Origin: Medicago truncatula
Lineage: Eukaryota; Streptophyta; Magnoliopsida; Fabales; Fabaceae
Length of the DNA stretch: 64,000 bases
Assembly (NCBI RefSeq): GCF_003473485.1
Contig: NC_053045.1
Span: 40,342,494 to 40,406,493 of the forward strand
Direction: 5' to 3'
Shown here: in pieces, positions 6,478 through 64,000 of the stretch
How the letters are laid out: each line of letters opens with the position of its first letter
Numbering within the stretch: position 1 is the first letter of the stretch
The notes under the pieces: model-generated
What the model was told of the DNA's origin: nothing
Databases searched by the model: none
Seen by the model: only the letters and a program-made list of their open reading frames with translations
Translations under genes and position numbers: made by a program

Positions 6478-9400
6478 TCATCTTTGAGGGGGATCAATTG
6501 TGCGGACATTAGCAACTGACATACCCTCAATTCGGTCCTTGGTGATTTCCACAAAGTGACCCACAATCTCATGAAACTGCTTGAGCCCCGACAATGGAAG
6601 AATGATTGAGGATCGATCAGAACCTGCAACCTGCAATGAAATAACAAGAATTTACAGCAGAAAATCTTCTACCCAAACTACAACGAAATAAAGCAAGAAG
6701 GACAATAAAAACATAATGGCAACACACCTCAGATATTCTTAGAAAATGGCCCCTATTGTTGTTCCCAAGATCAAAGAAAAATCTTTTTTGATCAGCTCTG
6801 ATCACTTTGGAGACCCCCAAGTTCCCAATTTCATCCTGAGCTGGCAAATCAACAGACCTGTCCACATTCAATTCAGAAGAGGTGGCAGGTTGAGTATTAT
6901 GACCAGATATGAAGCCAGCACCAACATCATCCGAAAGTAGTCGCTCCGAGGATTCAGAATTTTGCTGTTGCGAAATACAGACAAACAGATGAGTTTTAAC
7001 ACAAAAAAAAATAAAAAAATAAAAAATAAAAAAAGAGAACTTGGAAATTTTGGTGGCTAAGCAGGAAAAAAAAACTGTCTACTAGCAAAAGAATGAAACC
7101 TGATTGGGAAGAAGGAAAAGCCTCGAGGCTTCATTAATCTCTGCCAAAATGTTCCTGAATGCTGCCCACCCTTCATCCCTGGAACTTCCTGCAGGAACAA
7201 TTATAGTGCTACGGTTCCTGCTGACAGAAGCTTCAGACACCTTCGCAAAAAAAAAGTAGAGTCGTTAAATTTGAAATAAAATAAGCATACATGATAGATG
7301 TAATATAGTCCATTAGATAGAAATTCAGAAATACACATAATACGTAAGCCTAAAAGGATGCAAAACAAGATAACAACTTTTTATGAGGGACTACATGTAG
7401 CCTCATCAAAACAATTTAGGTTCAAGGTAGTCAAAATCAGGATTTTACATATAATCGGTAGGGGGGAGTAAAATCGTAAATCGTAGAACTGTTAAATTAA
7501 TCGTAGGATTATACAAAATTCATAAAACTAAAATGTATGCATATACATGCGTATAAAATAGCATAGGTAAGATAAAAAAAACCTTTAATTACACTTGAAA
7601 TACTTGTATAAATTTAAATTCATAAGCATAACTCACATAATAGCATAGTTGCATAACACTTGCACAATTAAAACTTAAAATACTTATGTAATTAAGACAC
7701 TAACACTCAAATATCAACAATATAACCCTTGAAATACTTGTGTAATTAATACTTTAAATCGAAGTCACAAGTCTCTAACAAAACAGCAACTAAAACTGCC
7801 TTTTGTAGTTCCACCATCGTGACCATAATCATAGAATCATTTCAAGAAAAGTGGATTATACAATACAGGATTCCACCAAATTGGGATTTTGTGTATACTC
7901 ATAATTGGTGAGGTAAGAATAATCGCAAAATCCTAGGGTTTTAGGATTAAAATCGGGATTTTGACTACCATGTTTAGGTTAACTGGAAACACCAATACCG
8001 GAGTTATTTGCAAAAGTTTTTGCAGATGTTACCTAGTGTCACCCGTCACCAAATTCAAATGCCATTATATTAACAGAGACCGATGTAGAATATTAAAGAA
8101 TTACAGAATATAACAGTTGACTGCGTAGCTACTTCCTTGTAATGCAGACCGGTTTTACTGTTCTTATGTTCCAGTGTGATACATGCCTTGAAGCATGCTT
8201 GTCAAATTCGCAGTCATTTTTACTGTTTGAAGCATGCCTTGAAACATAAAAGTTATCTCCATTCTCCAAAAATAGCATTGTTTTTACTGTTTTTTTTTTA
8301 TGCTCTGTTTTCTTGAAGCATTTTGTCCCTTTGTTTTGTTACAGTTTCTCCCGTTTGTGCATATCTTAAAATGTCCCTTTGTTTTGTCACCGTTTGAAAT
8401 ACGTTTGAAATAGTAATTTTCACGAGTCTACGTAGAGTCTTACATTGTTTAAAGCTTGATTTTGTTCAATTCTAGTGCAAGACTAATAAATGCTGTTGCA
8501 CCAAAAATAGAAGAGTTTTCCATTGTGTAACAGCACATGCAAAAACAACAGAAAGTGGCCAATAATGGCAACATCCCTAAACTTCTAATACAAAATGATC
8601 ACCTGGTTTTCAACGCCTTTCACCCCCTCCCTTTTCCTACCTTCAAACCCACATTGAAGGGCAAACATCAGATAGGAACAATAATCTGGCAATATGAATA
8701 TAAAAGGGGATATTGAAGATACCCCTAAAATACTCAACGTAGAAGATTTTAAACAAAGAAAATAGAAGGTCCACATATTATGTACTGTGCAATAAAGGGG
8801 GAAATTCTTCAAAAAAAAATCCCAGGCTCTATCTTGGAGTCACAAGAGAAATTAAGAGAGAGACAGGATTTGGAGGAGGAGGAGGAGGAAGGAATAAAAG
8901 ATCAATGTATTGAGCATAAAAGTTGAAGATTAAACAATTGTGTAGATGATAGGTATGACATAAGTATTGTGGGGTGATTTATAGCATAATCATCATCAAA
9001 CAGACAACTAAACTAAGCTTCAGAAGTCAGTGCCTAAGCTGAATCAGAAATTCCACCACGGAAAGACTTCAACATGATGTATTTTAATTTCTCATCGTAC
9101 AGTTGCAAAGTTCCAAGCGACACAAATCGAACATGTTGAGATACAGGTGTTTGATCTCCACCAGCACCAAAATAATTCTACTGAAACACTGCAAAGCACA
9201 ATTCACTCTCTATCGACCACCATTATAAGCACGAAATCTGTGAAATTTGAATTCCTAGATCTTACAGTAGTATTATGCATTTCAAGCAACCGCGATAGGA
9301 ATGTCTAACAAGATACCCAGCATTTACTGCAAAATCCAAATAAAAATTTCCATTTCTCACAAATAAACAAGTTGTGAAATGGTAAATAGTCTGTTATAAA

Positions 9401-10234: not shown

Positions 10235-10629
10235 CTACGCCAATCCAATTAGGGAGGGATTCAGAAAATTGAAATTGAATAAAGACGAAACAGATCTGAG
10301 TTTAGGGTTGGGAAGGTGGAATTGGGATGAGATGTGGAGAGTGGAGTGTGAAGTGGCTTTTGTTGGGTGGGTGGAGCTACAACTACAATTACAAGGACGT
10401 CATTCACGATGTCGTTTGTAGATCCATCTCATGAATGAATGAATGAGTGAATCTTTGTTTTCACCTCAATAAGTCAATTTTCTAAGAATCGGTAATTTAC
10501 TCCTTTTGTAGTACCTGTCAAACACTGCTCCTAATTCTAATCAATAAATAAACTGGAGTAAAAGTATATTTTTAAAATCAAAACTGGAATTAGGGTCTTG
10601 TTGGTTTAAAAATATTTTTTAAAAATATA
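10235..10629. other. PURA1 5' untranslated region and promoter side
   Basis: The 395 bases upstream of the PURA1 ATG. The first ~150 bases are purine-rich on the plus strand and are probably leader sequence. An ATGA repeat lies at about 10431-10448. No TATA box stood out. Confidence 0.4.
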
Positions 10630-10911
10630 CTTCATCCGTCCCAGATTGTATTACTTTTTCGGCATTTTACACACATTAAGAAATATAATTAATATTGTGT
10701 GGAAAAGAAATATTATGAAATGTTTTAAAAAATTGTCCTTAATAAATAATATGGGAAAAATAAATAAAAGAATTGAAAGAAGATAGAGTAATAAATAGTT
10801 AAGGTTATAATAGAAAAAATAACATTAATGTTACATAGGTATTGTAAAACGACATATAATTCGTGACAATTTTTTTTTTCTAAAGCGACATATAATTTGG
10901 GACGGACGGAG
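10630..10911. mobile_element. Stowaway-type MITE
   Basis: About 282 bp with ends CTTCATCCGTCCCA and the complement of CTCCGTCCGTCCCA. TA precedes the left end; the right flank is CA, a decayed copy. Internal sequence (TATGTCGCTTTA-type motif, TTATTTATTAAGGACAA on the opposite strand) matches the element at 16043-16325 in reverse orientation. Non-coding. Confidence 0.75.
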
Positions 10912-11058
10912 CATCTTTTTACACTTTAAATATATCTTTTGACACTTTAGGACAAGTTTATAAAATTACTTTTGGATACTCTTTATTGTCAAAATTTAAA
11001 ATTGTACATAAACATTTTATTCTCATATATCCCCTTCAATGGAATACTATATCTAAAT

Positions 11059-13677: not shown

Positions 13678-16600
13678 TCACACAGAAATCCCTAACTCGG
13701 AGATCTTCATTATCCGTTTGTCCAGCACAGATCTCTGCCGCTTCAAACTTGAAGCCAAAGACGCAACCTGGTTATGTTTTTGTGGTGGACAAGAAACAGT
13801 AAGTAATTTCAAGTTACAGCACGTTTGGAAAACAAAGAATACAGAGTCATAGACTTGCCTCAGCTCGAAGTGTCAGGGCTTCACGGCTAGGTATATCCCG
13901 CAGCCTGTCTATTAAATCTACAGCATGATAATAGAGTGTAAATTTCAAAGCAGTAGCTCGGGCTTATTATTAAATATCATGACACATCCCCAAAGCAAAT
14001 ATGAAAGGGATAAAATAATCATAAAAGGAGCCCCTGCTTTTTATTAGTAAAAAACATCTGACCACACAAAAGGAGACATGAAATTAATTAAGTTAGTTTT
14101 TATATAGCATACCAGTAGCTCGGGCTTCAGCCTTGTATGATGATTTTGCCAGGCGTTGTAATTGGGCTCCAGTGTTCCTACGAATCATTGGAGTAAAACA
14201 TTCAGGCATACGTCAACTATAATCAAGTAACTCATACGTCCTTTCATTGACTGACTAATAATACATACATTAGTTCGCTGTGCCCATATTTCATTTCCTT
14301 CTCAGCAAGAGCTGTCCTTTGAAGCAATTTTATGCTCTCCTTCTTTAGCAAATCTACTGAAAGGTTCAAGTCCTTCACATTCTTCTCTGCACTTGCATAC
14401 CGTGCCTTCACAGGTATTAATGCAAAAAGGTGAAACAAACAACAGAATTTTAAGACACAACTGTCTAAGATCTCAAGATACAATGTCCTAAATATTAAGC
14501 TACAATATAATGAAAAAGCATATTAAGATTTATATCACAGATGAAGAGATGTAAGAACGTAGGTTAGGGATCTTGATTGTTCCACTGAATAATACCTCCT
14601 CACTTTGAAATCGACCCAATGTGTGGCGGAACAGAAATCTTCTCGGACCTGCAAGAAGATTAAGTACTTTAAAATAAAATAACATACAAGAAAATTACAA
14701 ATTCATTTGACTTGAGACAGAAAAACACACACACACACACTAGGTAAGACTGGTTTGAATCATAATGCAATATTATAGTACAAAAGTCGTAATGATCACA
14801 TTTCCCAAGATATGCATTAACAGCAACAATCAGGTTATACCTGACCAAGTGGGATCAGCAGCATGGATCAATCAATGCCATTATAAAAGGAAAATTTGAG
14901 CAAGGTCTTTTTTATTGGTTTATTCTAAAGTTTTTATTAATGAGAAAACTTAGACTAGGGGAGGCACACACCCATGTAAAATTATGGAGAACCACCAACC
15001 TCAGCGAGGCAATGAAATTTACGTTTACCAACTGGAGAATTCGACTATTCTAAAGTTTTAATAGGTATTCCCCTGTTTATTTTAATTGATCCCCATTGTC
15101 TCGCAATCACATCCTCTTCACCTTAAAAGAAACTTGTCCTAGAGTTTTCAGCTAAATCATGAAATCTTCCACTCCAAAATTAAATATTTAATGAAAATTT
15201 GATAAGTTAAATATTCAATCATGAACATGAATATTTGAAAAATCTTAAAATCATTTCCTGACTTCTTCTCTGAATTTTGAGAAATCAGGATCCTTTCCAT
15301 ACTAGCTTGATCAATCAGTTTTTGAAAGTATCGAATGAAGCATATCTGACTGAATAAAGTAAAATCAAAATTTTCTAACTCTGAAAATTTTAAAAGGTAT
15401 GGATCCAAAAATTTGTGTTCACCTCTTAAATTTGCAGGATTATATTATGAACAATTTTCCGGAGCCATTGATATGGCATGTTATCTTCCACTTGTAGAGT
15501 GTTTTCTTGATTGGATCAATGAAAAATGCATTTATTGGCTGAACTATTGATGTGATTAATCAGGTTCCTTTTGAGGATCCATAATTTATCTGGATATCAT
15601 AGATCAGTTTAAAAGTCCTTTCTATAATGCTATCTTACTTAAGACTACTTTCCAAATTGCCTATAAGGTCAAGGTTGCCTTTTTATGTATTAGGCAGGCT
15701 CTCTCCACACGATGCTTGCGACTTCAAAGCATTTTTTTTCCCCTTCTGAAAGGACTTCAAAGTGTGTTTAAACATGACAAATCTTCAATAACATGTGTTA
15801 GGAACCCACAGTGGAAAACAGAAAAAGGAAAAGGGTGACTTCACTGTTTTCTCAATGTTAACATGTGTTGCATAGGTACGGGTACGGTACTCGCCACTCG
15901 GTATGATATGGGTACAGGTACGAGAATACGGTTTTTTTTTTTTTTAAAAAAAAAGGTACGGGTACGTCAATAAAAAACACGAGTTTTGATATGATATAAC
16001 ATGAAAGAGCTAAATTGTTCAATTCACAACAAAAACATCATACTCCCTCCGTCCTAAATTGTATGTCGCTTTAGGGAAAAAAAATTGTCCCAAATTATAT
16101 GTCGCTTTACAATACCAATGCAACATTAATGTTACTTTTCCTATTATAACCTTAACTATTTATTACTATCTCTTCTTTCAATTATTTCATTTATCTTTCC
16201 CATGTTATTTATTAAGGACAATTTTGTAAAACAACTCATAATATCTTTTTTTCCACACAATATTAATTGCATTTCTTAATATGTGTGAAATGCCCAAAAC
16301 GTCATACAATTTGGGACGGAGGGAGTAGTAAACTGTAAAAGTTTAAAAAGTCAAAAACTGTGTTTGGTTACAATAACAAAGAAATTCAAATATACAAGTA
16401 ATATTGTATTATTACGTTAATATATGAGAAAAACACAAATTTCACTCTAAACAAAATAACGAGAAAAAATGGAGTACCGAACAAGTACCGTACGCGTACC
16501 AGTACCTGGTACGTACCCAATATAAGTGCTTCACCGTTTTACAAGTACCCATGCTACACAGATGTTAACAAATCTCAATGATCCTTCGACTCTACCCTTG

Positions 16601-24302: not shown

Positions 24303-27300
24303 ATGATGCTTTGTTGTTGTTCATTGAATTTGAATTTGAATTTAAGAGATCGAATACAACCATGGTTACGCGATTACGATAGCCTTCAATCCTTCGCTAT
24401 CATCCTCATTTACATTCAGGTACTTTCTTTCATTTTCCCTCAATCATTATAATATAATAATAATAATTTGATCGATGATTTCAATGAAGATTGGGTGCGC
24501 GTTACTTGGATCGCTAGGAGCATCATACAATGGTGTATCGCTTATAAATCTTGCTATCTCATTGTTCGCTTTGGTTGCAATTGAGAGTAGTAGTCAGAGC
24601 CTTGGACGCACTTATGCTTTCCTTCTCTTCTGTTCTATCTTGCTCGATATTTCTTGGTTCATTCTCTTCACTCACGAAATTTGGTAAGCCCATCGCAATT
24701 TAGTTTTATTGGTCGCCTTATAGACATGTTATTATGCATTTCACATTGTAGAATTCGTTAGAGATGACAGTAGTGGTGGCCGGTTTTAAAGAGAAAATGT
24801 GGATTATTCGTTTGTCCTATGAATGAATGACTAGAGACACACTTGAGTCCCTAGGAAATTAGGTTTGATTGTTCGAAATTTAAACCTTCCATCTTCTTAT
24901 CACTCTGCTCCTTAACTCCCCCACCCTCCAGGCAGAGTAATAGCTTTTGTATGGGATTTTTGTGGGATGACGAGATGCAAATCACTAAAATATACTCGTT
25001 GCCTGGGAAATCATACTCTTTCACAACAGTTTCCTTTGCGGCTTGTTAAAGCATAGTAATGGCTTTTGTGTGGGATGATGAGACGAAAAACACTGAAATA
25101 CACTTGTTACCTGGAAAGTCACGTCTCTTTCACATAAATTGCCTTTGTGGCTTGTCAAAGCAGCGTAATGGCTTTTGTGTTGGATTTTTGGAATACCTTT
25201 GGGTTGGGTTCATGCCCTTTTGACTTGCGGCATTTTTTGAAAAAAGGTCCTGAACTGACAATGGATCAACTAGATGAAATATGCTTCATCTAGCATATAC
25301 AAACTCTTGTGAACTTATGGGGGTTAGAGACTCTAAATTTGACTAACATTTCAATGCGTTGCTAACTGAGTTGCCTGAAACTTAAAAGTCCTTATTTGCT
25401 ATTTCATTTACATGTATTATTGTGTTGGAATATTTTGATCTGCTATTTGGTGGATGGAATTGAGCATTTAAAATGGAAATGAAGTTCCCAGTTCCAGTTA
25501 TCTTGTTTGGTGTATATATTAGAGTAGGAATTTCAAATATAAGCACAACTCTATGGCATTGAAAATAACTATTTTCAATTTTTAGCCTAGACCCTAAGAA
25601 ATGCTATTCCAAGATTAAAAGTCAACAACAATATGTTATTTTTGTTGTTTACTATCTTCGTTTCTGAGTATCTCAACAAGTTTTGCAGCTAGCATACTTA
25701 GGTTGTTTATGCCGGTAATGTGATTGCAGGATTCTTTGATTACTTTGATCATCTGTGGCAAGGTTCGCTTTTGGTTATCGTAATTGATGGAATATTTTTT
25801 TATCATCATAACGCACTCTAGCCACATCACTGCCAACATTTTTTGCATCCCTCTGTTTATCAATATGAAGTCACTGTGGTATACAATGAACAAACTATAG
25901 TATATATGCTCACATGAACCAATTTTCTATGCTTGTATGAATCAAACAAGTGATCATGACTGTGCTTTTGATTCACATCTGATCAAAATCTTTATGTGTG
26001 TTTGCAGGAATATTTCTTCCGACGATTATGCCAAGTTTTTCATATTTTCTGTGAAACTCACCCTGGCTATGCAAATCATTGGTTTTATAGTGAGGCTATC
26101 ATCCTCATTGTTATGGATTCAAATTTATAGGTTGGGTGCATCCTATGTGGACACAGCTTCTCGAGCAGCAGACTTTGACTTACGGAGTAGCTTTTTGAGT
26201 CCTGTGACACCGGCAGTAGCGAGGCAAATCTCCAATTCGAATGAGATACTTGGAGGCTCTATATATGATCCAGCCTACTACTCATCCCTGTTTGAAGATA
26301 GTCAAGAAAACAAATCTACATGTGGGGTAGGATAAATTTTTCAGAACCATATATCTGTTTATGTTTGCTTCAATGATTAATTTTCAGTTGGTATACATCT
26401 TTTCTGCTGGGTAAAGGAATAAAGATAGATGAAACTGGTTATATTGTCCTGTATATTCTGTAGTTAGCACGCTACCTCTTCTGGTAAATATCCACTTTGT
26501 GAAGTCTTATCGGATATACATTGATGACAAGGACAAGGAAGAAATGAAAGCTTTTCGGAAGACATTAAATTTTACCTGTGAACTTTAGGTTTCTATTTCT
26601 TATCATTGAGATTGAATTACACCTATCCAAAAGAAGGATAAAAGTTCTGCCTAATTTGTCAAACCAATCAATTTTTACCTATTCCTCAGCTTGCTAGTCA
26701 CATATTATGCAATCAAGTGATTGAGTTTAACACTTTATTCTTCTTCCTTCCCTATTGTAAGATGTTGCAGCGGGGGCTCTATTTATTGGTACCAGTCTAG
26801 TCTCTATCATGTTTCAATGGTGCATTTCACCGGTGCACCGACAGTTTTAAGGTTTCACACTGTGAAAGATTAAGCGCCAGAACAAAAACGAATACTAATT
26901 CCTGAGAAGAAAAGGCTTTTTGTAATTTTTTTCCAGGAAAATTCATTATAGGGATTTAATTTAATATTATGTATCCTACATAGTCTTGTTATTTTGATAA
27001 ACTTCGTTGGGCTTTACATATTTCATTTGATTGGTTGTTTCTAGATGCCCAATCATGACATTACCCAGAACGGGTCAACATCAGCCACTGGAGTCTCTCC
27101 GAAGACATCCACAGAGATATCTTTTCAGGCTTCGAATGTAGGTATTTGATTATTATATATACCCTTTTGCAGTCTATTTACTTTTTGCAGCATCATGAAT
27201 CTGTAATCTGTATTACTTGGCCTAAAACCTCTTTTACCCTGATCTCATGTTAACAGTTTACTGAGAATTTCGATCTGTTATGCATTTTACTGAACGACAC

Positions 27301-30150
27301 AGATGGATGTCTGTTGAATGTCATAAGAACATGGGCATTTTAATTATTTTTTATTGGTTTTTTTAATAAAAAAAAACATTTAAAAGTGATCACTTTAGAG
27401 ATTTTATTTTAGATAGTTTTGTCCTAATCATGGTTGATCAAGGCTAGACTGTGGTACTTTCAGAAGAAAAGTTTGCTAAGTGCAGTTTTATCATGTATAC
27501 ACAGGAGCCTGCCATGCGTAAATTGTGAAACAACTTATACTTTCAGTTATGCTTTTATTCCAATGATTTTTCTTGTCTCCTGGTTTATCGGTCTCTAGTT
27601 CACATGTTTAATGACTAAGGCGATATCTTTGGATCAACAGTGGATTCAAGATGAAACTAGTCAATTGCCTGCTTTGCACGGTCTTTTTAATGGAGAGTTT
27701 CATTTACGTTGATGTTTTATCTGGTCTTATTTATTTTTCTTTGGAAAAATTAGTGACCACATCAATGACCAAAATTTGTTCGCCTTGATAATCATTTGGT
27801 TGTCTTTCAAATGTTTTCCCTATTAGGAGGACAATTCACTGCCAAGGCTTTCAAATGTCTTTTCCTAGAGCACTCTCTTGATAATCATTTGATTGTCTTT
27901 GCTTTCTCCATCTTTTTGTTTTATTACTTTTCAACGATGACTATGACTGCTGACGGGTGCTAGCATCAAGGTAGACAAAATCGAGATCCTAAGTAAGATC
28001 GGGTAGGACCCATGAAATCGTGAATCGGAGGATCGTAACACGGATCGTAAGATCCTACCAAATTTAAAAATTCATATATATTGCATATAAATTCATAGAT
28101 ATTCATATGAAGCAACATAATTTAATAGAAAGAAAACTTTAAATAACACTAACATTCATTATCAGTAGCACATTAAATAAATTATATGGTGTGGTAGAAC
28201 AGTAAATAAATTATATGGTGTGGTTGAGAACAGAACAAAGGGAAAAGGGTTGAATATAAAATAGAGTGGCTATGAAAGAATGAAGGATTGTAGTCTGCAG
28301 AACTAATGGGGGTAGAAGACTGAATAAATAATTAACGTGATAGAGGGAATTGCATTGGTAAGGTTCCATGATTTATGGGTGTATTGGAAAATTTCCCTAA
28401 TTATTGATAGTGGCTTTATTGGAAAGATTTTCAGTAATCAATTGGTTTAATGAGAATTTGAAACTGTTTCAGAAAATTAGAAGAGTGAATCACGTTTTTT
28501 TTTTGCCTTTATGTTCGCAAAAAAAAAAAAGTTGGAATAAATCCGGGTCAAGGCCCGACCAGAAAACCAGGTCTTTAGTAAGTAAAACGCAAACCGGGTC
28601 GAGAACCGACCCGCGGACCCGGATTTCTGGATCTCAAATCTGAATCGCCAGAATCGTACGATACAAACAATTCTGCGTTTTTCAACGGCGATCCAAACCG
28701 CGACCACCAATTTCCGATTCCGACGACTTTCCGGCACGGCAAGAGGAGGTCAGATCGCAAACTCGGACGATCCTACGAGTTGGATCGCGAGTTTGTCTAC
28801 CTTGGCTAGCATGGTTGAGAGGATGTTGCCATTTCTCATCAACTCACCATGTAGTTCCTTCTACCTTGGCCCTGATATCTCTCTTCTGATTAGTAAATAG
28901 TCTGTCCACAACTTTATTCAATTCAGGTTTTTCATTATTTTAGAAGCGATTCCATTTTAAAAACCACGTGTGAATCTCTTTCCTATCTAGGTTGGTGCCA
29001 TACAATGTTTGTTAGATGTCTGCCCCTTAAAAACAAAGTTTTTCTTGGCTCAATCAAGAATGAAGAAGCATGAAATTGGATAGAAATGTACTGCAAATAT
29101 ATGTTTTTTATATACAAATACAGTTTCAATTGAATTAGATCGTTTCCATTAATATTTCTTGCATTTGTTTCGTGCTTAAAAGTTGATGGCATCAAGGTAG
29201 ACAAACTCGCGATCCAACTCGTAGGATCGTCCGAGTTTGCGATCTAACCTCCCCTTGCCGTGCCGGAAAGTCGTCGGAATCGGAAATTGGTGGTCGAGGT
29301 TTGGATCGCCGTTGAAAAACACATAATCGTTTGTATCGTACGATTCCGACGATTCAGATATGAGATCCATAAATCCGGGTCCACGGGTCGGTTCTCGACC
29401 CGGTTTGCGTTTTACTTACTAAAGACCGAGTTTTCGGGTCGGGTCTTTGACCCGGATTTATTCAAACCTTTTTTTTTTTTTTTTGCGAACATAAAGGCCA
29501 AAAAAAACGTGTTTCACTCTTCTAATTTTCTGAAACGGTTTCAAATTCTCATTAAACCAATTGATTACTGAAAATCTTTCCAATAAAGCACTATCAATAA
29601 TTAGGGAAATTTTCCAAGACACCCATAAATCATGGAACCTTACCAATGCAATTCCCATATTTATAGCAATCAATTCCCTCTATCACGTTAATTATTTATT
29701 CAGTCTTCTACCCCCATTAGTTCTGAAGACTACAATCCTTCATTCTTTCATAACCACTCTATTTTATATTCAACCCTTTTCCCTTTGTTCTCTTCTCAAC
29801 CACACCATATAATTTATTTACTATTCTACCACACCATATAATTTGTTTAATGTGCTACTGATAATGAATGTTAGTGTTATTTAAAGTTTTCTTTCTATTA
29901 AATTATGTTGCTTCATATGAATTTATATGCATATATATGAATTTTTAAATTTGGTAGGATCTTACGAACCGTGTTACGATCCTCCGATTCACGATCTCAT
30001 GGGTCCTACCCGATCTTACTTAGGATCTCGAGTTTGTCTACCTTGGATGGCATGTCTAATTGTCTACTGGCATCTTGACTCACCCAGATCAGATCTGTCT
30101 AGTTGGTAACTTCTTATGTGTTTTGATCCTTGCAGGAAGAGAATGTATAA
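24303..30150 (+). CDS. Small multi-pass membrane protein resembling AGTRAP
   Basis: Exons: 24303-24419, 24490-24683, 26008-26326, 27045-27137 and 30136-30150. They encode 245 residues. Four hydrophobic segments lie at about 29-50, 54-71, 80-100 and 113-141, followed by a soluble serine-rich tail. The order of segments and motifs (LLDISWFILF, LTLAMQIIGF, WIQIYRLG) resembles type-1 angiotensin II receptor-associated protein, which plants carry without the receptor; function in plants is unknown to me. Two in-frame ATGs (24303, 24306) are possible starts; an upstream frame is stopped. The last junction is ambiguous: AAT then GTAGGT gives the tail NEENV, while GTAG then GTATTT gives a 254-residue protein ending at 30173. 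Intron 4 is 3 kb and holds two hAT-like elements. Confidence 0.75.
27967..28804. mobile_element. hAT-like element, left copy, in intron 4 of the AGTRAP-like gene
   Basis: 838 bp. Ends CAAGGTAGACAAAATCG and the complement of CAAGGTAGACAAACTCG. A perfect 8-bp duplication GCTAGCAT flanks it (27959-27966 and 28805-28812). No transposase frame. It is closely similar, in reverse orientation, to 29193-30045. Confidence 0.9.
29193..30045. mobile_element. hAT-like element, right copy, inverted
   Basis: 853 bp. Same terminal repeats as the left copy (CAAGGTAGACAAACTCG at the left end). It has its own 8-bp duplication GATGGCAT (29185-29192 and 30046-30053). The different duplication proves a separate insertion event rather than one fold-back element. 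It ends about 90 bp before the last exon. Confidence 0.9.
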
Positions 30151-30701: not shown

Positions 30702-31050
30702 AATAGCGTGCGAATGTTGAATTTGTAATGATTGATAAACATTGATTATAAGGAGGATAAAAGAAAAAGAAGGGTAAAATCTACATCAACCAATTCAAAA
30801 TCCTTTAACATGATATTTCAAATCGGTTTAGTTTCAACATGATTTGATATTTGACGGTATTGCATAAGCAGTGGTTGTTATAATAGTCGTCACTTAGGCC
30901 CCATGCAGCCTTTCTCTTGGCTGAGTATGGAAGCAATAGTGTCATTACTTGATTCACACGTTTTCTATTAAGAATTAACAAGTCTTTCATCAAAGAAATT
31001 AAGCTAGTGCAGAAATAATGAGTAAGACCTTTGCAAACACTCAAATATTA

Positions 31051-31442
31051 ATCACCTATTTGTTGATAAAGAATAGTTCGAAAGTCCCCTCAATTTGGCA
31101 GTGCCTAATCACCTGTTTGTTGATAAAGAATAGTTCGAAAGCCTCTCATTTTGGCAGTGCATAATCACCTATTTGTTGATAAAGAATAGTTCGAAAGCCC
31201 CTCATTATGACAGTGCCTAATCACCTATTTGTTGATAAAGAATAGTTCGAAAGCCCCTCATTATGACAGTGCCTAATCACCTATTTGTTGATAAAGAATA
31301 GTTCGAAAACCCCTAATTTTGGCGGTGCCTAATCACCTATTTGTTGAAAAGAATAGTTCAAAAGCCCTTCATTTTGGCGGTGCCTAATCACCTATTTGTT
31401 GATAAAGAATAGTTCAAAAGATCCTCATTTTGGCGGTGCCCA
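31051..31442. repeat. Minisatellite, 7 copies of a 56-bp unit
   Basis: Each unit begins ATCACCTATTTGTTGATAAA, continues GAATAGTTCGAAAG and ends GGCAGTGCCTA or a variant. Seven units with scattered substitutions fill the interval. Intergenic; no reading frame is conserved across the units. Confidence 0.9.
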
Positions 31443-32154
31443 AAGATACAACAAAACGTTGGTACTTTGGTTTCTAGAAACTATACGAGGCCAACGATCC
31501 AAGTTCATGAGCTAACTTGGTTTCATTTTAATTCACCCAAAAAATAGCTTGGTTTCATTTTCATGTGATTTAATCTTTTTTTTTTTTTGAGGAATTTTTT
31601 ATGTGATTTAATCATGACAGTGGATTGATAAAATATAAGTTGATGATCCAAAATGAATGGTCGCAAAAAATGGTTCGTATCAAACGTGGGTATATCCTTA
31701 TCTTTATAGTTGTATTACTTTGCTAATATTTAAAAGACCAGATCATCACATTCCAAAATTGCGAAACAGACTAAAATATGAAAACCATACACTTCTTTTT
31801 TTTTTTTTTTTGAAGGAGAAAACCATACACTTCTTAATCATGATATATATTGCATTACTTCAGCAACATCAGCCGCAAAATAATAATCAAAAACAAAAAG
31901 TTGCCCACATTTTCGAGTACCAAAAATTCATACATATAATCTCAAAAATTTAAGAGTTTGCAACTTTTCTCAACGATAACATAAGGTAATAGTGGTATGC
32001 AAATACGTGTAGAAAAGGGAAAACCCCAATAAAAGCATCAATTGATGTTTTGCATCCAATGTAGACTGTAGATGGTATAATATAAGAGTTCATTATTTTC
32101 CATCATAAAAATACTTCGCCAAAAAGCAGAAAAAAATCACTTTTTAATGGGAGA
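31443..32154. other. Intergenic DNA downstream of pyruvate kinase 1
   Basis: About 0.7 kb, AT-rich with poly-T runs. The end nearest 32154 is the presumed 3' untranslated region of the kinase. Nothing else was recognised. Confidence 0.4.
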
Positions 32155-35100
32155 TCATTTCACGGTCAAGATTTTGATGATTGATGCGGTACCCACGCGA
32201 TGCAGAACCACAACAGAATCCCCATTAACGCAGAGTCCCTTTCCCTTGGCACATTGAAGGGCAAATTCTATTGCATCTTCTGTTGTTTCTGCATGAGAAG
32301 CTCTAGCAGAAGCTGCACTTAATATTGGAATCAATCCTCGGAATATCAAGCTATGTCTCGCAGGGGACTCATCACTGCATGACCAATCAAAGGTATCAGT
32401 CGTTAGCTCAGGAACAACAACAGAAAGAATTGGCGTGCCTGGCCTGTATTTAGCCACCAATTTTGCAGTAGTCCCTCCTCTAGTTAAAACCAATATGAGA
32501 GCTGCTCTAGCAGAGTTGGCTGTTCTAACAGCAGAAGAAGCTAGACTCTCCAACGGGCTCATGGGTACTGGTGAGTGCTCCATTATCCTTTTGAATACAT
32601 CTCCATAGTCAATGGTGCTCTCAGCTTCAACACATATTTTAGCCATTGTACGAACAGCGAGTTCTGGATAAGCTCCAGCAGCAGTTTCACCACTAAGCAT
32701 GACACAGTCTGTTCCATCCAGAACTGCATTTGCAACATCAGTAGCTTCAGCTCTGGTTGGCCGGGGAGATTTGATCATTGACTCCAACATCTGGGTCGCA
32801 GTAACGACCGGTTTTCCTTGGATATTGCACTTATAAATCATCACTTTTTGTGCGAGAAATATTTTCTCAATTGGAATTTCCATTCCAAGGTCACCACGTG
32901 CCACCATAAATGCATCAGAGTTTGCAAGGATATCATCAAAGTTTGCAACCCCTTCTTGGTTTTCAACCTGCCACATACAGTTGCAAGTCGCAGAAAAAAA
33001 GCAACTAGAAATAAGTAATTGAACATAAACATATACAAGAGATAGAAAAAATCAGTAGGAACTCAAACATATTTTCTTTGAAAAGCATCTCAAAGTTTGT
33101 TAGATGATGTCAAATAACACACATTAATGTGGATGCAGCAATCATCTCTATGAAATCATGTCTGATTAGAACTCTTGACACATCGTTAAACAAGCTCAAA
33201 AATCACATCTATTCCATGAAGAAAAAAAAATCAGAAATTCATAACATAGCATACCTTTGACATGAGAAGAATGTTCTTAGCATGGTGTCCTAGCAGTTTC
33301 CGAACTTGCACCAGATCAGAACCTTTTCGAACAAATGAAAGCGCAATCATGTCAATTTTATTGGGAACTCCCCAAGCCATGATATCTTCCTTGTCTTTCT
33401 CAGTCAAAGTGGGAAGATCCACTACAACTCCAGGCAGATTAACATTCTTTCTCTCGCCTAGAACAGCAGAGTTCTCACAGCGGACTCGAACCAAACCCAA
33501 TTCTTTGTCACATGATAAGACTGTAAATGATATGGTTCCATCTGCGCAGAGTATGACACTCCCGGGCTTCACATCATGAGCCAACTTTTTGTAGCTCATG
33601 CTGATTGTATTCTCATCACCCTTTAGGCTATAGTCAGTTGAAATAGTTATTTCATTACCTTGTTTCAGTTGTATAGGTTTGGCGTCCTTGAGAAATCCAG
33701 TTCGAATCTCAGGCCCCTGCAGCAATGAGCAATGCAAGTAGATGCATAAGATGAAAGATATGAAATGTAGGAACTTGAAAATGCTGGTTTTATTTTATTA
33801 AGTTGATGAATAATAATGCCTCGAACTCTCACCAATTCAGCATTTAGTGAAAGATAGGAAATGTAACATGCCTAAATGATTAAGCCATTCATGTTCTTGA
33901 CCTATGAAACTAAGAAGCATATAATGAGTAAATCAGCAGCTTTACATTGAATTGTTTTTAACTTCATTTTTATGAGCCCAGTAATACTAGATCGGTTTAA
34001 AGAACCTTAAGAACTTTCTGCTACAAGCCTCCAACAACATACCTATTTAAGAACTTCAAATAAGTCCTACAACTACAAGTCACCCTACATCTTGTGCTAT
34101 TATTGTGGAAATTATTTTTTAATGCATAAGAAACAGCTTTTCTACTCTTGTACAATAAGAGTTTTTAGTTGCGGCACTCATCTCATCTCCCTCAAATTAC
34201 AATACTCACCAAAATCAGGTTCTAAACCATAAAGATTAAGAATCAAGTAAGAACCGGACATTGAAGATGCTTTTATATCATTATAGCGCAGAAGCGTTAA
34301 AAGAACTATAGTCTATTTGGATTGACTTATTTGAGCTTACCTACTAGCATAAGCACTTGTGAGACTCTTATGGCCTTGTAAGCACTTGTGAACTTATTTC
34401 TATGACTAGATAAAATAAAGTTTAATTGTTTACATATAAGCTATAAGCAGTTTCCATAAGCTATTTTGAAGAACTTATGAAAATATGTTTAACTTATGAA
34501 CATAACAGAAGTTGATTTCATAACTTCTCTCAAGTAGTCTCACAAGTCCTTATGCTAGTGAATATGCTCAAATAAGTCAATCCAAACAACCTTTATGACA
34601 AATAAAAAAATTATTTTCAGCTTATTTTCATAACCTCTCTAAGATAGCTTATAAAAACTGCTAATAACTTGCATGAAACAAGTTTGACTTTATTTTATCT
34701 TGTTATAAAAATACTTTATAAATAAACAGTTACATGATAAACGCTTAAATGAATTGTTTACCCAAACATAACCTAATCTTACAGTTCAAACATGTATTGA
34801 CGGTAAAGTCACTCTTAATCCGTTAAATTTGATCTTAATTCTTATCCATACATATAAGGTCAAAATCAACTTGATACACTTCATACATCTCACACATCAA
34901 TCACAAACACAGATTACAATTAACAAAGAAAACTCAAGATACATATGAATAATGAGTAATTAATAAATAAATAAATAAATAAATAAATAAAAAGGTTTAA
35001 TACCTTAGTATCAAGCATGACGGCGCAGAGAATTCCGGTATTCTCCATAGCAGCTCTAAGATTATCAAGAGTTTCCTGATGATAGTCATGAGAACCATGA

Positions 35101-37330: not shown

Positions 37331-38426
37331 ATAATATATATTATTTTACTCGAATTTTTTTTTCCTTTTTATGTTGACGGTTGTAGTAAATTATAGCAAT
37401 TAGATCAAAAAATTTATGAATTGTCATTTTCCATAATTATAAATTTTTAAAACAATTTATAATTAATTCATTATTTGTTTAAATATTCTAAAATTTTGTG
37501 TTGATGATTATTATGTTATTCTAAAATTAGGGAACAAAATTTCACCATAAATGCTTACTCGGAAGTTGGAACAAAATGTGTTTAGATCGAAAAATCAAAA
37601 TAAATCAAGACTTCTTTGAAGTATTATAAAACTTTGTAAATACCTTCTATGTATTTTTATAGACGTCTTTGCAAAAAGTATCTCAAAATGTGTTTATAGA
37701 ACGATGTTTATGGTGTTTTGTTTGTTTGAGCTTTTTGCGCTTTAAAATACATAATTAATCCATACATTGTCGTTAAATTCTAATTATATGTGGAAAACTA
37801 TATTTTAACGTCCTAAACATTCTTGAAAATGATGAAAAAATTCAACCTCTAAGTCCTTTTTTAGACTTTATATCTCACATGAAATATGAAGAATCTCAAA
37901 TTACAATTGTCATTTTCGCTTATATCGAATGATCATTTGAACGATTAATCCGAAAATATATAGCTTCAAAATGTAAATTGAAGAAAGATATTTGTACCTG
38001 TTAACCATGAAATAGATTCAATTATCAAAGTATCCAAATACAAGTATGCTTAAGTCAAACGTAAAAGATGAGATATAACAATTACAAACTCCCAGCCATC
38101 TATGTAAGAATTAGTTGGGTAGATGATCTTTTGTAAGAGAAAATTCTATTATATAGTTTGTCCACAAGTTTTGTGTGAAAATTCATTAGCTCTTGCTCTT
38201 GTATTGTTTTCTTTACCAACTAAGAACCGGTAACAATGTCTTTGACTTGATCAAACTTTTATTGTTTGATTTATGAATAATTCTAAAATAGGGAATATGT
38301 ATCCCTAATAATAAAAGCTCTAATTGATGTTCTGCATCCAATAAAGAAAGAAAAATGTATGATAATACTTCTTTCCCACCATCAAAAATTGCCAAAAGCA
38401 GCTGAAGAACTCATTTTAATGGGAGA
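37331..38426. other. Intergenic DNA downstream of pyruvate kinase 2
   Basis: About 1.1 kb, AT-rich, ending in the presumed 3' untranslated region. No coding frame was recognised. Confidence 0.4.
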
Positions 38427-41054
38427 TCATTTCACAGTCAAGATTTTGATGATTGATGCGACACCTACACGATGCAGAGCCACCACAGAATCCCCGTTAT
38501 TGCAAAGACCTTTTGTTTTGGCATACTGAATGGCGAAGTCTAGTGCCTCTTCTGTTGTTTCTGCATGAGAAGCTCTAGCAGAACCCGCACTCAGTACTGG
38601 AATCAATCCTCGGAATATCAAGCTATGTCTGGCAGGGACCTCATCACTGCAGGACCAATCAAAGGTATCGGTCTTAATCTCAGGAACGACAACAGAAAGA
38701 ATTGGCATGCCTGCCCTATATTTAGCCACTAATTTTGCAGTACTCCCTCCTCTAGTTAAAACCAATATAAGTGCTGCTTTAGCTGAGTTTGCCATTTTAA
38801 CCGCAGAAGAAGCTAGACTCTCCAATGGGCCCATCGGTACTGGTGAGTGCTCCATTATCCTTTTAAATACATCTCCATAGTTGATGGTACTCTCAGCTTC
38901 AACACAAATTTTAGCCATAGTTCGAACAGCAAGTTCTGGATAAGCTCCAGCAGCAGTTTCACCACTAAGCATGACACAATCTGTGCCATCCAGAACTGCA
39001 TTCGCGACATCAGTAGCTTCAGCTCTGGTTGGCCTAGGTGATTTGATCATTGACTCCAACATCTGCGTTGCAGTGACAACCGGCTTTCCTTGGATATTAC
39101 ACTTATAAATCATCACTTTTTGTGCTAGAAATATCTTCTCTATTGGAATTTCCATTCCAAGGTCGCCACGTGCCACCATAAATGCATCTGAATTTGTAAG
39201 GATTTCATCAAAATTTGCAACTCCTTCTTGGTTTTCAACCTGCCACATACATTTGAAGCAACAAAGAGATAAAGTAACCAGAAATAAGTAACTAAATACA
39301 ATATACACCAAAGATAACAAATATCAGCAGGAACTCAAAAGAAAGTTTGTTTAAAGAACATCCTAAATTTTGTTAGATGATACCCAATAGCGCACATAAA
39401 TGTAGATGCAACAAGCATCTCTATGGTGTCATGACTGATTCACAGTTTCAATATATTTTTAAACCAGAACTTTTCATTTTCATGAAATAAAACCAGAAAT
39501 TCACAATATACCATACCTTTGACATGAGAAGTATGTTCTTAGCATGTTTTCCCAACAACTTGCGAACTTCCACCAGATCAGAACCTTTTCGAACAAAAGA
39601 AAGTGCAATCATGTCAATATTATTAGGAACTCCCCATACCATGATATCTTCCTTGTCTTTCTCAGTCAATGTTGGGAGATCCACTATGACTCCAGGAAGA
39701 TTAACATTCTTTCTTTCGCCAAGCATGGCAGAGTTTTCACAGCAGCATCGAACCAAACCAGCTTTTTTGTCACATGATAAAACTTTAAATGATATGGTGC
39801 CATCTGCGCATAATACAATGCTTCCGGGCTTCACGTCATAAGCCAACTTTTTGTAGCTCATACAGATCATATTCTCATCTCCTTTTATGTCATAGTCGGT
39901 TGAAATGGTTATTTCCTGACCTTGTTTCAGTTGGACAGGCTTTCCATCCTTGAGAAATCCGGTTCGAATCTCCGGCCCCTATAACAATGCAAATAGATAC
40001 ATAAGATAAAAGACAGATAAGGAAATAATTTCACATTCATTAAGTCCAACAATGGCAATGCCTTGAATTCACACCCATTCAGCATTCAATACAAAGATAT
40101 GTAACATGATACAAACAAATTATCAGGTTATGAATGAACTTGTATACCATGAATTCACACCAATTCAACATTCAGGATATCTAACACAATGCACACAAAT
40201 TCTCAGGTTATGAATGAACTTGTAAATTGTTCTTCATGAATCATGATTATACATACATATATAATTTTGTGTATGTTCACTTCACAGACATATCCCCGTT
40301 GGAGACATTCAGGGCATTCATCCCCACTCGGATTTCCATGAGAGTTGCCAATACAAATTTATATACATATCATATCAATGTTGTTAATCAATGAAAATAG
40401 TAGTTTGTTCAAATTCTGCCATGTGACAGTGCTATAGCACCGTTATAGCCACTATTAACACTTTGTACTAATTAGCATATTGCGGAACAATAATGGTTTG
40501 TTCAAATTCTGCTACACCATAGCACTACAACACCACAATAGATGCTATTATTTGACAACACTGATACATATTATATATACATTACCGTTAACTCTATGAC
40601 TTCAAATTTCTATCACTTCAAATTTCTGGATCCGTCATTATGTATTATAATGGAAAGATAAACATAAATGAGAGATCTAGTAATATTTAGGTTTGATCTA
40701 CATGTAAACGATCAAATGCACATTAAATCACGCATTAATCACACGTAAGATGCAAATTCTATACCATCCTATCAAAAATCATAAGATTAAAAAAGTAAAT
40801 AAAATAAAATCAACAGAGAAATTAAAGTTTAATACCTTAGTGTCAAGCATGACGGCGCAGAGAATACCGGTATTTTGCATAGCGGTTCTAAGATTATCAA
40901 GCGTTTCCTGATGATATTCATAGGAACCATGAGAGAAGTTGAAACGAGCGACATTCATGCCTGCTTGTAGAAGCTTCTCCACCATTGGAACAGACCTCGA
41001 TGCAGGTCCCAGCGTGCACACGATCTTTGTTTTGGGTTTCTTCTCTGCCATCAT
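38427..41054 (-). CDS. Pyruvate kinase, cytosolic isozyme (copy 2)
   Basis: Three exons: 41054-40836, 39978-39517 and 39239-38427 (73, 154 and 270 residues). Total 497 residues. Exons 2 and 3 have exactly the same lengths as in copy 1, all introns are phase 0, and intron 2 is still alignable, so the pair arose by tandem duplication. The same catalytic signatures are intact (LDTKGPEIRTG, SFVRKGSD, MVARGDLGMEIP), so it should be active and cytosolic. Differences from copy 1 are scattered, for example LVRCCCENSAML against LVRVRCENSAVL and MVWGVPNNID against MAWGVPNKID. The N-terminus is MMAEKK; the second Met (41051) may be the true start. Confidence 0.96.
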
Positions 41055-62325: not shown

Positions 62326-62622
62326 TTTTTTATAAGGCCAGAGCAAATGACTTCAAGAAGAGTGACTCCAACTATATTGGTACCCAACTCTAATCTTTTG
62401 TCAAATACTTATAAATATTATTAAAAAAAAAAGGAGAAAAATATATAAAAAAAAACTGGGAACATCAACCTAACCAGTTTATCCATAAAATGTAGATCTA
62501 CCCAAACGTGTTATATGAAAATTAACAACACCAATGGATCAAAACAGCCTCCTTAGAGGTCTAGACTGTAGTGAATGGACCAACCGTCAACACGGAGCAT
62601 ATCCACGTACCATCATCCCTTA

Positions 62623-63574
62623 GGGTGGGATTTAGTATGGGAAAGGATACTTGTTTCCCACCATGGAAAAATATTTTTTGACAATTAGATTAAAGAGGAA
62701 TACCAATTTTATCATGGTCTATCCACACTATATTTTTTCTCTTTCTCTTTCACCATTTTCTTCAACCTCCATCACTGTTCTCCTCTCCACTTCTCTACCC
62801 CCAACACAGTCACCACTAAACAAACTTGGTAGAAATCTCATGGTGACAAATAGAAAATCATAGTCATAATAATAAAGGAAAATAGGACCTGATTTTAACT
62901 AATTATTTCAAAGAATAATAAAAAGATCTAAAATCGTATAACAAGGAAATTTTCTGAAAGTGTTTGTCTGATGTTTGCGTGAATTGATTTCTTGGGCTTC
63001 AAAGAGAAAGGGGATAATTAGTTAAAAGTTATACAGTTGATGCTAATTCTTGTTTTGAGTGTGTTAATTAAAGGAGAGACCGATGAGTATCTTCTTTCCA
63101 GACAACGGTTCCGACGACGTTTGTTACAGATGTGTTGCCCTGTGATTAAAGCAACATCGTTTGCGACAGAGAGGTTGGATTCGTCGGACGGAAGGGAGAG
63201 AGGAAGAGACGAAAAGATGGCGTCGGAAGTGGTGTGTGTGTTTAAAGGAGGACAGGGAGGGTGGGAAATATTGTAAAATTTCATATGTGAATATGATGTT
63301 GCTAATTATCCCCTTCAATGTTGAAGGTTGAAGGTCGGAAGTGGTGTGTTGCTAATTATTTCAGATCTAAAATCTTAACTTATGGAGGTTGAAAGTCAGT
63401 GGTGGTGGGGGGTTCACGGTAGAGTCTGATGGAGGTTGAAGAAAATGATGAAAGAGAGAAAAAATATAGTGTGGATAGACCATGATAAAATCGGTACTCC
63501 TCCTTAATCTGATGGTCAAAAAATACTTTCCCATGGTGGGAAACAAGTATCATTTCCCATATTAAACCCCACCC
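62623..63574. mobile_element. Long-TIR inverted-repeat element
   Basis: 952 bp. The left arm begins GGGTGGGATTTAGTATGGGA and the right arm ends with its near complement. Pairing continues for well over 100 bp (TTGTTTCCCACCATGG; TATCCACACTATATTTTTTC; CCTCCATC). The centre has short frames (for example 63037-63276) with no known domain. No clean target duplication was found; the long arms suggest a Mutator-like element. Confidence 0.75.
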
Positions 63575-64000
63575 TCCTTCCAAAGTACAACAAGTTAAAC
63601 ACTCTTTCGAGTCACAAAGCAAATACAAATAAGACCCTTCTTCCGACGTGTGGAGAAAAACCACCATCCAAAAACATCTGAAGCAACACATCAGTTCGTC
63701 CCTTATTAGACATTGAAGAACGGCGACATCCTTAACAATATGCTCATCAAAACATCTTAAAAGGAAGAACAATATGCCGATAAAAACAAAATAAAGCTAT
63801 TCAATTTTTTTCTTAAAAGGCTATTCAATTTTTCATATTACAAAAAAGTTATTTTTTTTTTTTTGTGGTAGATAGTTATTATTTTTCTTATAAAAAATTA
63901 TTGATTTTTTTATGAAGAAAAAAGATAATTAAAATATAAACCTAGTGTGAAAAAATAAAGAATCATAAACCTCTCCTCGACGAAGAAGGGAAATCGAGCC
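63575..64000. other. Intergenic DNA at window end
   Basis: AT-rich with poly-T runs. A minus-strand frame of 130 codons (63380-63772) overlaps the end of the inverted-repeat element and has no recognisable family. No gene can be supported. Confidence 0.4.

Follow-up and report, generated by a model that had tools for sequence, protein, structure and literature searches.

Two facing hAT-like elements in the modelled last intron of a Medicago truncatula gene and their predicted RNA hairpin

Mu killer (Muk) of maize carries inverted transposon sequence that gives a hairpin, and Muk silences an active autonomous family. Another point of comparison is hATpin, which Moreno-Vazquez et al. reportedly presented in 2005 under a title that speaks of hAT MITE-like elements that fold themselves. 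Here we describe two related elements, A and B, which face each other in a stretch of 64,000 nucleotides of the Medicago truncatula genome (the window, i.e., the whole of the DNA that was analysed). As in Mu killer, inverted transposon sequence is predicted to give a hairpin, but the silencing of an active autonomous family is a feature of Muk. As in hATpin, A and B are hAT, MITE-like and have a predicted stable secondary structure, whereas their hairpin requires two copies.

Other plant systems resemble the pair in the kind of element or in its setting. BniHAT-1 and BniHAT-2 of Brassica nigra, with inverted ends of 25 and 12 bp (PMC7385995), and the hAT-like MITEs of carrot (PMC8227079) have, according to parts of these reports, 8-bp duplications, inverted ends, a length below 1 kb and often a position in or near genes, all of which also describes A and B; A differs in its CpG-rich 3' part. 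Inverted repeats near Arabidopsis genes (Arce et al. 2023, outlined in part of a review, PMC12595863) are likewise TE-derived and lie in or next to a gene, whereas here two complete copies, each with its own duplications, share one intron.

The anatomy of the pair, as re-derived from the sequence, is given in Table 1 and agrees with the first-pass annotation in coordinates, inverted orientation, spacing and both 8-bp duplications. Alignment of A with the reverse complement of B gave 866 columns, comprising 794 identical positions, 31 mismatches (14 transitions and 17 transversions) and 41 gap columns; the arms are thus identical at 794/825 aligned bases. Indels private to each copy were also found, A being without 22 bp present in B and in a relative elsewhere in the genome (L014), and B without 11 bp present in A and L014, while the flanks of A and B are unlike each other. 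The motif CAAGGTAGACAAA is present at all four ends, and the longest stop-free frames are 90 codons in A and 107 codons in B. The 64 kb were scanned for inverted ends with 8-bp duplications, resulting in five matches, three of which have hAT-like ends (A, B and a third element, C), with the remaining two sitting within the A/B hairpin; 20 first-order Markov simulated sequences, used as a control, gave 0 or 1 match each and three in total. The two were also considered as a single 2079-bp composite bounded by outer duplications; this was rejected, because the outer flanks differ (GCTAGCAT vs GATGGCAT) and A and B are each bordered by an exact duplication pair of their own.

Table 1. Positions of the elements, their duplications and ends, and the modelled host gene within the window
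Feature	Position	Strand	Remarks
Element A, non-autonomous hAT element (by sequence), 838 bp	27967..28804	+	inverted ends; exact 8-bp duplication GCTAGCAT; relatives in own genome
Element B, copy related to A in opposite orientation, 853 bp	29193..30045	-	inverted ends; exact 8-bp duplication GATGGCAT
A, left target-site duplication GCTAGCAT	27959..27966		
A, right target-site duplication GCTAGCAT	28805..28812		
B, left target-site duplication GATGGCAT	29185..29192		
B, right target-site duplication GATGGCAT	30046..30053		
A, left terminal inverted repeat	27967..27989	+	partner 28782-28804; 91%, 21/23 positions match
B, left terminal inverted repeat	29193..29215	+	partner 30023-30045; 96%, 22/23 positions match
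Spacer between A and B, 388 bp, predicted hairpin loop	28805..29192		
Host gene, 245 aa by model	24303..30150	+	coding exons 24303-24419, 24490-24683, 26008-26326, 27045-27137, 30136-30150
Last intron by model, 2998 nt, contains A and B	27138..30135	+	acceptor ranks 1/160 AGs (score weights chosen by the analyst)
Element C, distant family member, 550 bp	7423..7972	+	exact 8-bp duplication TTTAGGTT; a PurA-like coding block on either side

Other repeats also occur in the window. An inverted pair of a different repeat, 88% identical over 288 bp, occupies positions 10628-10914 and 16040-16327 and has CTCCCTCCGTCC-like ends, which we take to be as in Stowaway MITEs. Further along, 62622-62774 and 63427-63575 form an inverted repeat of ~150 bp (90% identity, ~650 bp between), and 32028-33758 and 38310-40013 are direct duplicates (84% over 1738 columns) with pyruvate kinase coding blocks in each copy.

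Relatives of A and B were sought in the genome to which the window belongs (429.9 Mb, 42 contigs), and this holds at least 65 matching pieces including A and B, with 40 of the 118 candidates scored, a modest number for a MITE; A and B are otherwise small, non-coding and multi-copy, as MITEs are. The exact 17-bp end occurs 28 times in this genome, four of these in A and B, and its reversed control 0 times. Forty family stretches were fetched for inspection of ends and duplications, and 23 of them had both ends and an 8-bp duplication (at most one mismatch); no 8-bp duplication was found in the other 17, 15 being without a recognisable end pair and matching flanks and two (L014 and L017) having ends. 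Four stretches on contig C4, near 5.86-5.90 Mb (L041, L051, L052 and L053), have the duplication ATAAGCAT in common and follow each other at ~12-kb steps; they are probably a tandem array carrying one insertion and were counted as such, leaving 20 independent copies, of which 14 have an exact 8-bp duplication.

One relative, L031, is 3287 bp long, has ends as in A and B and an exact duplication, and is 91% identical to A across the first 200 bases. It encodes DUF659 (E 1.7e-58) and Dimer_Tnp_hAT (E 2.3e-5), both above the Pfam cut-off and in separate reading frames, its coding part being spread over several frames (introns or breaks). As a rule, hAT-type terminal inverted repeats have A at position 2 and G at position 5. 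Because the transposase-bearing L031 has the same ends, A and B are, judged by sequence, non-autonomous hAT elements, large ones by MITE standards, and the earlier assignment to hAT is upheld by the 8-bp duplications, the hAT-type ends and the hAT domains of L031. The distant member C is 65% identical to A over 185 columns and has at least 54 matching pieces of its own in the genome (40 of 97 candidates scored). Plasmid records gave no relative of B at E 1e-5, and in viral contigs the 17-bp end matched in five stretches with no A or B match longer than 18 bp, which was taken as chance.

The first-pass annotation had treated A and B as separately inserted, which stands insofar as the distinct duplications indicate two events; the copies themselves, however, look like sisters rather than unrelated insertions. 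Their sister support was 97/94 in trees of both ends together, which covered 17 of 25 elements (C, L031, L035, L037, L040, L041, L042 and L044 were excluded as too diverged, short or long), and 84/81 for the 5' part and 90/89 for the 3' part in half-element trees of 13 of the 25 (L016, L017, L030 and L032 also excluded). Of the matches that were scored, B is closest to A (92%), and L008 and L014 come next (88%). L014 (C6:7878411-7879240) is the nearest scored relative outside the window; it has no target duplication and its outermost bases are altered, and it may therefore be rearranged. Comparing A, B and L014 site by site gave 41 for A=B, 10 for B=L014, 16 for A=L014 and three three-way, and at sites polarised with six further copies 8 supported A+B, 2 A+L014, 2 B+L014 and 8 fell under 'other'. 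A is equally close to B and to L014 in the first three bins (11/402 and 11/411 positions differing, respectively), and most of the sister signal stems from the 3' part, in which L014 has diverged. That A and B are sister copies among those scored is moderately supported by these comparisons, and a nearer relative could be missing because 40 of 118 genome candidates were scored.

Random placement of 30-65 copies would leave 0.0002-0.0004 others expected within 1.3 kb. Because A and B are mutually nearest among the scored copies, descent from two unrelated donors is less likely than a local jump or subsequent gene conversion. Of these the jump is the simplest account, and arms homogenised by conversion are the alternative, which would give the same signal. 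Mismatches between A and B are mildly clustered, with 15 in 200 columns of the CpG-rich part, a density reached by 74 of 2000 shuffles (scanned at 5-column steps, hence slightly lenient). Partial gene conversion was set aside as a reading of these mismatches, the clustering being mild and in a CpG-rich part; conversion over the entire arm length may have taken place. The divergence of the copies (K2P 0.039) translates to 1.5-3.0 My at substitution rates of 0.65-1.3e-8.

According to the gene model, A and B probably lie within the last intron of the host gene. The modelled last exon has five codons (EENV and a stop), and its acceptor lies 90 nt beyond the end of B. Read-through from exon 4 would, in the same model, add VGI and a stop in place of EENV at the protein end, and an RNA ending inside the intron would hardly alter the protein, changing the last few residues only. 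The name AGTRAP, which the gene had been given, is unconfirmed because Pfam returned a weak MFS_2 match under the cut-off (E 0.018) and none above it, and PDB returned no match at E up to 1. A paralogue that might confirm the last exon was sought in the own genome and none was found, the four matches being the gene's own exons; a narrow phrase search of the literature for AGTRAP in Arabidopsis found no paper. AATAAA occurs at six sites in the 2998 nt of the intron (four in A, one in B and one outside), with ~4 expected from base composition, and special polyadenylation signals in the intron were rejected as this is no clear excess. Immediately 3' of the host gene, at positions 31049-31440, a 56-bp unit occurs seven times in tandem.

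When the intron was folded in silico, 800 of the 838 bases of A paired with B, and the longest unbroken helix between them was 97 bp. The folding energy was -1650 kcal/mol, compared with -766 kcal/mol when B was reversed; the 1291-nt intron without the elements gave -292 kcal/mol. The very long double-stranded intron RNA that had been predicted is thus reproduced by folding, which for a 3-kb RNA indicates that the hairpin can form on thermodynamic grounds; its forming before splicing is a separate matter. No Rfam family was found in the window at gathering scores.

We propose that larger relatives supply hAT transposase in trans, and that A and B would have inserted at different times or sites, most likely through a local jump in which one copy landed, reversed, at a linked site. 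The resulting inverted repeat has arms of 838 and 853 nt and a predicted loop of 388 nt. Upon transcription of the intron, some of the RNA would fold back and be diced to 21-24-nt siRNAs, and these would mark A and B, possibly along with the rest of the family, for methylation. The host gene would be little affected, because the intron is spliced out and read-through, by the model, only swaps EENV for VGI. We give this whole explanation, i.e., two hAT insertions, a local jump, a hairpin, siRNA and methylation, and little host effect, a probability of about 0.8. In our judgement the anatomy of the pair is nearly certain; taken on its own, the production of some siRNA from the pair is slightly favoured, and a measurable effect on the host gene is improbable. 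The small-RNA, splicing or polyadenylation effects suggested in the first-pass annotation are plausible because of published cases, described in parts of the sources cited: rice EUI is repressed via siRNA by an intronic MITE and rice OsIBM2 RNAi and mutant lines show premature polyadenylation of genes with heterochromatic introns (PMC7145194), and carrot hAT-like MITEs in introns are often retained in transcripts (PMC8227079).

The insertions themselves may be read in other ways. Inverted repeats are hard to assemble and A and B are close relatives, so the pair might be suspected of being misassembled, or of being one element that was copied locally, inverted and together with its flanks; the different exact duplications, the 31 substitutions, the private indels and the unlike flanks nevertheless make such a duplicate, a danger already raised in the earlier annotation, scarcely credible. 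That annotation had also seen a hint that the elements favour targets ending in GCAT. On the + strand GCAT does close both duplications, and the two agree at 6/8 positions, an agreement (at least 6/8 in either orientation) found in 1.5% of random pairs when judged after the fact, and the duplication of L041 ends likewise. Yet GCAT endings number 3 of 23 sites, these being A, B and, out of the 21 others, L041, and a common end 4-mer at any end and in any orientation occurs in 2.4% of random pairs; the A/B pair prompted the idea, and these chance figures are post hoc. Over the 23 sites (A, B, C and 20 other copies, with half-sites treated as independent, which is a simplification) the pattern is instead T at position 2 or A at position 7, in 27/46 half-sites against a background of 0.33 (p 3e-4; 25/42 without A and B), with a pyrimidine at 3 or a purine at 6 in 37/46 (p 2e-5). 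The T2/A7 preference is the nTnnnnAn target pattern given for Hermes in part of one report (PMC10368747), and a true preference for GCAT is very unlikely.

The fate of the RNA likewise admits other readings. A and B may be unremarkable intronic MITEs, removed by splicing too early for the hairpin to have any consequence, with no small RNA and no effect. Plant introns often contain MITEs, as in carrot, where 918 of 3637 hAT-like MITEs are intronic according to part of one study (PMC8227079), and AATAAA shows no clear enrichment in this intron; on the other hand, unbroken pairing of up to 97 bp is in principle a good Dicer substrate, and 24-nt siRNAs come from ~486 of 634 inverted repeats near Arabidopsis genes according to part of a review (PMC12595863), which leaves the chances of an inert pair somewhat short of even. 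Alternatively, the gene may stop in exon 4 with SNVGI and a stop, placing the hairpin downstream, between convergent genes. The intron offers an in-frame TGA from its tenth base and an AATAAA at 27365, and the modelled last exon, of five codons, is without homologue support, but the donor GTAGGT and the top of 160 AGs, by score weights of our own choosing, join in frame to a stop, and we regard an end in exon 4 as unlikely.

With two hAT insertions related by a local jump as the preferred reading, the arrangement clearly exemplifies a kind already known. It adds a family with a transposase-bearing relative, likely sister copies, a corrected target preference and, by the model, a near-neutral effect on the protein of an ending in the intron. 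The pair might even be a natural trans-silencer, in which a local jump into the opposite orientation gave rise to a gene-driven hairpin whose siRNAs hit the ends common to the whole family, L031 included; this is a long shot, and if it were true the host-gene promoter would control the silencing of the family. New small-RNA loci have been proposed to arise from inverted transposon pairs. Should this pair yield nothing, it would serve as a useful negative case, and the locus could test if a local jump alone suffices to make a silencing hairpin, to which it is suited because the family is identified, the divergence is measurable, the insertion sites are distinct and the intron is probably a single one.
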